Assembly: GCA_011049455.1 (NCBI GenBank)
Contig: DSBL01000073.1
Span: forward strand, 1-33,308
Direction of reading: 5' to 3'
DNA length: 33,308 nucleotides
From: Desulfonatronum sp.
Lineage (GTDB): Bacteria > Desulfobacterota > Desulfovibrionia > Desulfovibrionales > Desulfonatronaceae
Position numbers and translations under genes: made by a program. Shown here one piece after another: positions 1 to 882 of this stretch. Under the pieces are notes generated by a model. It was not told the DNA's origin. It searched no databases and saw nothing but the letters and a program-made list of their open reading frames with translations. Every line of letters begins with the position of its first letter. Positions within the stretch are counted from its first letter, which is position 1.

Positions 1-34
1 GATCGGAAACCTCCCATGACTGAACCTTTGGCAT
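1..34 (-). CDS. IS transposase, N-terminal 11 codons only (runs off the left edge)
   Basis: Reading leftward from an ATG whose complement is 32-34, the frame gives MPKVQSWEVSD and is still open at base 1. This resembles the usual beginning of IS5-family DDE transposases (a Met-Pro-Lys start followed by a W-x-VSD motif). A strong Shine-Dalgarno GGAGG lies five bases upstream of the ATG on the same strand, which supports a real start. The transposase would mediate cut-and-paste transposition of its element. Only 11 residues are visible, so the family call is tentative. The start region is embedded in a perfect inverted repeat, described separately. Confidence 0.5.
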   Translation of the reverse strand, partial: MPKVQSWEVSD

Positions 35-78
35 GTTGTCCTCCATGATCAAGGTTGAACATGGAGGACAACATGCCA
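29..78 (-). promoter_or_regulatory. 19-bp perfect stem-loop enclosing the transposase ribosome binding site and start codon
   Basis: Bases 29-47 and 60-78 are perfect reverse complements, separated by a 12-base loop. On the minus strand the 3' arm contains GGAGG, a five-base spacer and the ATG of the leftward transposase. Any RNA that reads through from the right would therefore bury both the Shine-Dalgarno and the start codon in a stem. Known IS10 and IS50 biology includes exactly this kind of protection against transcription entering from outside. No T-run follows either arm, so it is not a simple terminator. The outer boundary of the element is not visible. Confidence 0.6.
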
Positions 79-142
79 GAAATGCGAAATAAAGTCCACA
101 TTATTTACGGATAAGCTCTAAGTATTAAAAGGAGTACGAAAA

Positions 143-388
143 ATGCAAACGATTTATACCGACAGAATCGTCAGCGTCACTGAGTTGAAACGGAATTTCA
201 GCAATGTACTTAGCCAAGCCGGCAATGATCCAGTAGCAATTCTCAACCACAACAGGGCAGCAGCTTATCTTCTTTCCGCCGAGCATTATGAACGACTGAT
301 AGACCGCCTCGAAGACATCGAGGATGGAAGACTAATTCGGGAACGCGCGGCCGGACCTTTTGTGGAGGTAAGCATGGATGACCTATAA
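143..388 (+). CDS. Type II antitoxin, Phd/YefM family
   Basis: An 81-residue protein with the Phd/YefM layout. The N-terminal DNA-binding part reads VTELKRNFSNVL (about residues 12-23), followed by a PVAILNHNRAAAYLLSAEHYE core (about 31-51) and an acidic, probably flexible C-terminus that would wrap the toxin. AAGGAG lies eight bases upstream of the ATG. Family members bind and neutralise the cognate RelE/ParE-type toxin and repress their own promoter. The stop codon overlaps the start of the downstream toxin gene by 11 bases, the normal arrangement for antitoxin-first modules. Its position next to an IS fragment suggests a mobile or recently rearranged locus (inference). Confidence 0.88.
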   Translation: MQTIYTDRIVSVTELKRNFSNVLSQAGNDPVAILNHNRAAAYLLSAEHYERLIDRLEDIEDGRLIRERAAGPFVEVSMDDL

Positions 389-668
389 ATTGCAATTCCA
401 TGAGCTGGCCTTAAAAGAATGGAACAAGCTGGCTCCGGATCTTCGAGACCAGATGAAAAAGAAGCTTGCTGATCGCTTGGAAAACCCTCACATCCCCTCT
501 GCCGCTCTTTGGGGCATGGAGCATTGCTACAAAATCAAGCTGCGCAAGGCAGGATATAGACTTATTCACAGGGTTGAGCAGGATGTCGCCGTTCTCACAG
601 TCATGGCCGTTGGCAAGCGTGACAAGCTGAAGGTCTATTCCGCGGCACAAGTGCGAGTCCGTAGCTAA
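378..668 (+). CDS. Type II toxin, RelE/ParE family
   Basis: A 96-residue basic protein of normal length for the RelE/ParE superfamily. It starts MTYKLQFHELALKEW, continues with a helix rich in K/R, has the core CYKIKLRKAGYRLIHRV (about residues 52-68), and ends with a VMAVGKRDKLKVYSAA strand (about 76-91). The KLRKAGYRLIY-like strand and the GKRDK.VY ending are hallmarks of RelE-type ribosome-dependent mRNA interferases, so a RelE role is somewhat favoured over a ParE gyrase poison. The catalytic mechanism cannot be proved from sequence. The start lies inside the antitoxin gene, implying translational coupling. No frame damage is seen, so the pair may be active. Confidence 0.87.
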   Translation: MTYKLQFHELALKEWNKLAPDLRDQMKKKLADRLENPHIPSAALWGMEHCYKIKLRKAGYRLIHRVEQDVAVLTVMAVGKRDKLKVYSAAQVRVRS

Positions 669-882
669 ATCATCACACGAACCATCTTCCGCAATTAATC
701 ATTTTCCATGCCTTGTTCCGATCCGCGCTACCCATTTCAGGAAGCGGGAAGGGGAAAGCGAATGCGGAAAGCGGCATAGACGAAACCAGGTCTCCACCTT
801 AAAAGAGCCGCTAAGCTGTCCAAGGAATCGGACCCACTTCACCGTCAATGTCGAATCATGGCCCTGAAATTTGCTGCATGCG

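Follow-up and report, generated by a model that had tools for sequence, protein, structure and literature searches.

The left edge of the window (the whole 33,308-nucleotide stretch of Desulfonatronum DNA analysed here) carries the start of a transposase frame buried in a long inverted repeat, and the locus raises the question of what a hairpin at such a place does for a mobile element. The initial annotation had described a 19-bp perfect stem at 29-78 enclosing the ribosome binding site and start codon of a leftward IS5-like transposase, and had proposed that RNA made from neighbouring promoters folds and hides this start.

The window begins inside an insertion sequence whose left end occupies positions 1-118 on the minus strand, with the tip at 118 and the interior beyond the contig end. 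Read on the minus strand from the tip, the order is GAGCTTATCCGTAAATAATG, leader, stem and transposase start. Terminal inverted repeats are present, with GAGCTTATCCGTAAATAATG at both ends of the element; the left repeat spans 91-118 on the minus strand (inner limit approximate), and the right ends in the genome matched window positions 91 to 119 or 120 at 90% over 29-30 bases, including 1-2 flanking bases. Positions 119-121 (TTA on the minus strand) are a presumed 3-base target duplication, judged from the TTA or TAA next to the element's ends in this genome and from the duplications of relatives. A probe search of the genome detected nine left ends (window included), identical across the left-end region of the element, and a right-end probe detected ten right ends. 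The flanking bases were TTA in six and TAA in three of the left ends and TTA in six and TAA in four of the right ends, with left and right partners unmatched in this genome. All 19 ends (9 left and 10 right) were located at contig ends, so it is the multi-copy nature of this repeat that stops the contig at base 1. None of the contigs of the genome was found to carry the interior, and the leftward extension to a whole element that had been suggested earlier failed at this point. A DNA pattern scan across the genome contigs returned 0 matches, plasmid blastn with the left end as query returned no match, and PF13340 gave one match in this genome, below cut-off and with a stop. At another locus (L029, ~1478-1528, corresponding to ~45977-46027 of contig C15 in genome G000) two terminal repeats of the family abut head to head, forming a palindrome of ~50 bases with almost no spacer that resembles a minimal remnant or a MITE.

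Beyond the tip of the window element stand a Phd/YefM-type antitoxin (143-388, PF02604) and a ParE/RelE-type toxin (378-668, PF05016). The antitoxin start codon is 25 bases past the tip, and the insertion may have cut the toxin-antitoxin operon off from its promoter. The toxin-antitoxin side had been offered as a source of read-through into the transposase; the operon in fact points away from the element, and read-through need not come from there.

Of the transposase of the window element, 11 codons at the N-terminus (MPKVQSWEVSD) and 37 residues at the C-terminus are readable. The frame start (ORFA, 2-34, minus strand), recognised from its sequence and its similarity to relatives, is cut by the contig end. 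The earlier expectation that the frame continues past base 1 was borne out over the 11 visible codons, which are open and transposase-like, up to the contig end where reading stops. The N-terminal SWEVSD is common to the window frame and the relatives, and the C-terminus encoded at the right end was 97% identical over 37 aa to that of L098, with identities of 95% to L089, 92% to L101 and 84% to both L113 and L092. Among these relatives, PF13340 was matched by ORFA of L098 and of L089, and PF01609 by the second half of L098. The NCBIfam model NF033580 ('IS5 family transposase', cut-off 110) scored 129.9 bits against the second half of L098, while the ORFA halves of L098 (105.9) and L089 (102.6) fell under the cut-off. 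Together these matches agree with the earlier call of a leftward IS5-like transposase, and we place the element in the IS5 family, an assignment that for this copy is read from the two short termini. The L098 transposase is split, its two halves lying in different, overlapping frames; two overlapping frames joined by frameshift are found in the IS427 subgroup. Eight loci were examined for completeness, and four of these (L098, L089, L101 and L099) were complete at 921-926 bp and flanked by TTA/TTA or TAA/TAA duplications, the other four not fitting the end pattern. Target duplications measure 3 bp (TNA) among IS1031-group elements and 2-4 bp in IS427, and the 3-bp duplication of the window element's kind presumably fits the IS1031 group. 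The C-terminus of the element was detected in its own genome only when eight genomes of the family were searched, being absent from the seven others. Weaker relatives were found in 27 other genomes of the 348 in the class, and a plasmid protein search returned 974 records with relatives, six of them at 60-80% identity.

The hairpin was evaluated by direct reading, a repeat search and folding. The inverted-repeat arms at 29-52 and 55-78 are 24 nt long and 96% complementary, and in the folds the outer 19 bp (29-47 with 60-78) pair perfectly, followed by an A.A mismatch, three pairs and a 4-nt loop. Minus-strand RNA from 110 to 1 folded at -48.2 kcal/mol, and 200 dinucleotide shuffles of this RNA gave a mean of -25.67 kcal/mol (sd 3.1, z -7.27) with 0/200 folding as well, confirming the 19-bp perfect stem. 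Both the ribosome binding site GGAGG (44-40) and the start codon ATG (34-32) lie within the 3' arm (29-47, minus strand), so the repeat does enclose them as annotated. The 5' arm (60-78, minus strand) contains the anti-Shine-Dalgarno sequence CCTCC as well as a -10-like CATGTT with a preceding TGG. The stem is also part of the other copies, with the same arms present on all nine left ends found in the genome. A terminator scan found none at the stem, and an Rfam search of window 1-700 with E up to 1 gave 11 matches, all short of the curated score, those that fell on the hairpin being miRNA-shaped.

Read on the plus strand, the palindrome of the stem also gives an outward GGAGG and ATG (73-75) within window 60-114; the outward frame MPEMRNKVHIIYG, read by eye, stops after 13 codons, within the terminal repeat. 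When 297 genomes of the order were searched at the DNA level, with two candidates scored in each, two matches were returned besides the genome itself, both at the start of hslV (L046 and L047). Here the plus-strand arm resembled the hslV start over 29 bases at 90%, with E of 2.5e-4 and 3.8e-4 per genome. Capture of an hslV start by the element was considered and rejected, as hslV in the element's own genome starts differently and chance is the likely cause.

To compare the leader among relatives, an ORFA alignment search was used, which yielded 422 candidates confirmed in genomes, of which the best 80 loci were taken together with 7 from viral contigs. These 87 relatives gave 69 leaders, 3 of the 69 were left out with fewer than 40 bases upstream, addition of the window and three earlier loci brought the set to 70, and 11 near-duplicates were dropped, leaving 59. 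Three of the 59 had no Shine-Dalgarno sequence by the list used and were dropped from the shuffle test (n=56), and one was too short for the arm-swap test (n=58). A later search produced 30 more loci, 15 with a leader, that entered none of the tests. Related sequences are not independent, so the permutation figures given below are not strict probabilities. When each leader was tested on its own, 22 of 56 (window included) folded better than 95% of their shuffles and 15 of 56 hid the Shine-Dalgarno sequence better than 95% of shuffles, with 2.8 expected in each case. The folded leaders formed different stems over the same start (e.g. L098, L099, L108, L128, L115 and L093), and most of the close complete relatives concealed the same start in hairpins of different sequence.

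Co-variation between the arms was measured by folding the 5' part of each of the 58 elements with each 3' part, taking the row and column means as the expectation. Own arms folded 5.35 kcal/mol better than the swap expectation (permutation sd 0.37), and the own pair was among the best 5% in 29/58 elements. Three other cut points gave -4.79 to -5.31 kcal/mol with 22 to 27 of the 58 in the best 5%, and removal of the window left -5.02 kcal/mol over 57 elements (28/57 in the best 5%). Eight control regions from the same loci (50-56 elements each) ranged from -1.34 to +0.17 kcal/mol. The -1.34 control lies inside the gene at +400, near the frameshift region, and had 9/56 in the best 5%. This small own-arm advantage in the relatives covers ~+340 to +409 of the transposase gene near the frameshift site, and a hairpin stimulating the frameshift there is possible. 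The advantage at the leader was missing in five of the 58 elements (L136, L152, L153, L171 and L173). Two of these five, L171 and L173, belong to the most remote relatives (49-50% identity), and L172, equally distant, had a weak advantage (rank 0.16).

The window stem had both the lowest energy and the largest own-arm residual among the 58 elements, in keeping with its earlier description as unusually long and perfect. That so strong a stem occurs in the window alone could be taken to mean that the palindrome was produced by chance or mutation and has no function, and template switching can generate long inverted repeats. Against this stand the z of -7.3 and the co-variation across elements with its near-flat controls, and we consider an accident of this kind scarcely credible.

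The same co-variation was followed pair by pair on A2, a sequence-only alignment of the 12 close elements; the tested structures were taken from rows of A2 itself, which favours them somewhat. The 19 pairs of the window were paired in 77.4% of 217 cells, as compared to 71.9% (sd 1.5) in shuffled alignments and 40-58% when the structure was slid. Cells changed on both sides numbered 18 vs 9.1 in shuffles, and the covariation score was 0.288 vs 0.206 (sd 0.021), a value reached by 0/500 shuffles. Two measures were not clearly above control, namely the number of pairs in which both sides changed (6 vs 5.5 shuffled, 237/500) and further pair types (25 vs 21.5 shuffled, 39/500). The L098 structure on A2 was paired in 73.2% of cells vs 40-54% when slid, with a score of 0.252 vs 0.186 (0/500). 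When the pairs at the -10 and the ATG were left out, 73.7% were paired vs 66.0% shuffled (1/500) and 42-56% slid, and the covariation score was 0.374 vs 0.257 (2/500). RNAalifold on A2 predicted no consensus structure. We take this to mean that turnover of the hairpin is rapid, so that its columns fail to align over longer distances.

These alignments also bear on the level at which the palindrome acts. It might work as DNA, as the operator of a repressor such as the transposase itself, and not as an RNA structure; in favour of this, the window repeat is at the DNA level a perfect palindrome of 19 bp that surrounds a site resembling a promoter. The relatives retain pairing and not sequence, partly through G-U pairs, and arm sequences diverge greatly between elements. 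In 10/12 sequences column pair 32-83 is U-G, which pairs in RNA and breaks a DNA palindrome. A DNA operator is therefore very improbable.

The extended -10 (TG-G-CATGTT, 70-78, minus strand) lies wholly inside the 5' arm and is the candidate for the element's own promoter. Across A2 it reads TGnTAnnnT, in which the first T and -10 positions 2 (A) and 6 (T) are invariant and the G nearly so. Counted by eye, the window -10 has 3/6 consensus matches and the -35-like hexamer TGGACT (93-98, minus strand), 17 bases before the -10, has 4/6. Close relatives have similar hexamers at the same place (TATACT, TGTACT, TTTGCT and weaker ones), with a spacing of 17 in most of the 12 and of 16 in L100, and the hexamer is weak in L099 and L108. 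An automatic promoter search detected a -10 in 57/58 elements and picked sites off the conserved place for some (e.g. L088, L086, L093 and L113); beyond the close 12-element group the place of the promoter was less clear and other sites were often chosen. As the extended -10 lies inside the 5' arm, the element's own RNA is predicted to start near base 63 (~+/-2 bases, minus strand), 7 bases beyond the -10, and would thus be without bases 78-64 of the 5' arm (15 of 19). The initial annotation had looked for RNA initiated inside the loop or within the 3' arm; this came close, and the conserved -10 moves the predicted start to within the 5' arm.

The consequence of such a start was assessed as the predicted cost of opening -14 to +3 around the start codon. 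For the window this cost was 28.2 kcal/mol in read-through RNA and 6.3 kcal/mol in own RNA, as compared to 7.7 and 5.9 kcal/mol for shuffled leaders. The 12 close elements were compared using automatic sites for 11 and a site set by alignment for L113, and the cost difference averaged 10.2, as compared to 2.95 for shuffled leaders. In eight of the 12 (window, L091, L092, L097, L098, L099, L108 and L113) no more than 5% of shuffles gave as large a difference, and the 5% mark was missed in L089 (0.07), L100 (0.08), L101 (0.22) and L090 (0.31). Own RNA was also more open in 47/57 elements, the median rising from 0.29 to 0.46; a shorter RNA is more open anyway, and it is the shuffled leaders of the 12-element test that correct for length.

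Taken as a whole, the hairpin would act as a safety catch against transcription from outside. The promoter inside the 5' arm would start the mRNA near base 63, this mRNA would lack the bases that pair over the Shine-Dalgarno sequence and ATG, and its transposase start would be only weakly folded. RNA from a neighbouring promoter would contain both arms, form the 19-bp stem and not be translated, so that the level of transposase would be set by the element's own weak promoter and not by the landing site. We think it probable that the hairpin protects the transposase start from outside transcription with the element's own promoter inside the 5' arm; what we infer is where transcription starts, that translation is blocked and that the block is of benefit. 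Read-through is plausible because in four of the nine flanks an open frame, running the same way as the transposase, enters the element (L001 496 aa, L005 335, L009 268 and L008 101), these being frames and not proven genes.

A hairpin of this kind could instead repress translation always. The real start would then lie upstream of the 5' arm, e.g. in the terminal repeat or at the junction of joined ends, and an antisense RNA or host factor would open the structure, as proposed for ISPpu9. The window -10 is weak, and the available part of PMC8450116 describes for ISPpu9 a stable leader structure that conceals the transposase ribosome binding site and blocks translation until an antisense RNA opens it. 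A promoter-like TTAATA-17-AATAAT at window 128-100 on the minus strand also speaks for such a start; it spans the element edge, so that the -35 would be that of the target, and matches at 9/12 letters, with one such match found vs 0.9 expected by chance. What permanent repression leaves unexplained is the fixed place of the extended -10 in the 5' arm of the close relatives, and we regard it as unlikely. The Rfam search for an antisense RNA (window 1-700) gave nothing at curated scores. In L115, L116, L133 and L167 a GATAAT is likewise found with its -35 position at the element edge.

Protection of the transposase start from read-through has precedents. In IS10 and IS50, which are IS4-family elements, the transposase start lies near an inverted repeat that folds in outside RNA only and hides the translation start, the element's own mRNA beginning inside or after the 5' arm. 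The window hairpin is like these in that its ribosome binding site and start codon lie in the 3' arm, and unlike them in belonging to an IS5-family element and in having a long and perfect stem. IS10/IS50-like protection from read-through, as the initial annotation had envisaged, is supported by the comparison of relatives, many of which appear to carry compensating changes. It would be a known type of safeguard, here in an IS5-family element with the strongest stem of the 58.

IS200 is described in the accessible portion of PMC3196728 as having one stem-loop that ends impinging transcripts and another that hides the ribosome binding site. The concealment of the transposase ribosome binding site and the silencing of impinging transcripts, predicted for the window element, are alike, whereas IS200 as described there differs from the window element in its separate terminating stem-loop, its lack of terminal inverted repeats and its different transposase. 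Unlike the ISPpu9 structure, which according to that same part of its source sits in the transposase mRNA, the 5' arm of the window element is predicted to be missing from its own mRNA. Among the elements of Amoebophilus, ISCaa2 and ISCaa9 each have, within their first 50 bp, predicted stable hairpins, described as structures that 'might interfere with expression' (PMC3196728, data not shown there), and within the IS5 family ISCaa9 is placed there closest to the IS1031 group; in the text available these hairpins come without a comparison of relatives, whereas the window hairpin was compared among relatives. A 1983 study on repression of IS1 by read-through appears in the reference list of PMC12428005, as far as that source was available. 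The accessible parts of PMC4265352, PMC9330008, PMC2909936 and PMC12428005 contained nothing on the window hairpin, and the open-licence papers listed, judged by title and opening of the abstract, included no study of this hairpin in the IS5 branch concerned, which is weak evidence of absence.

More broadly, a sizeable branch of the IS5 family, represented in records whose titles name many bacterial phyla, may keep a fast-changing -10/anti-Shine-Dalgarno hairpin by which outside transcription means 'do not translate', a generalization on which we are evenly divided. A widespread insertion sequence may then hold its activity independent of its landing site, and the natural hairpins with their matched relatives are a set for measuring read-through protection. 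A further comparison is with IS5 of E. coli, in which, from the part of PMC11677980 available, it is the flanking nmpC promoter on which the most important copy depends. That element, of the same broad transposase family, is driven by outside transcription, whereas the window leader predicts the opposite. If true, a single transposase family would contain two opposite strategies towards genomic context, and the contrast with E. coli IS5 permits their direct comparison within it.
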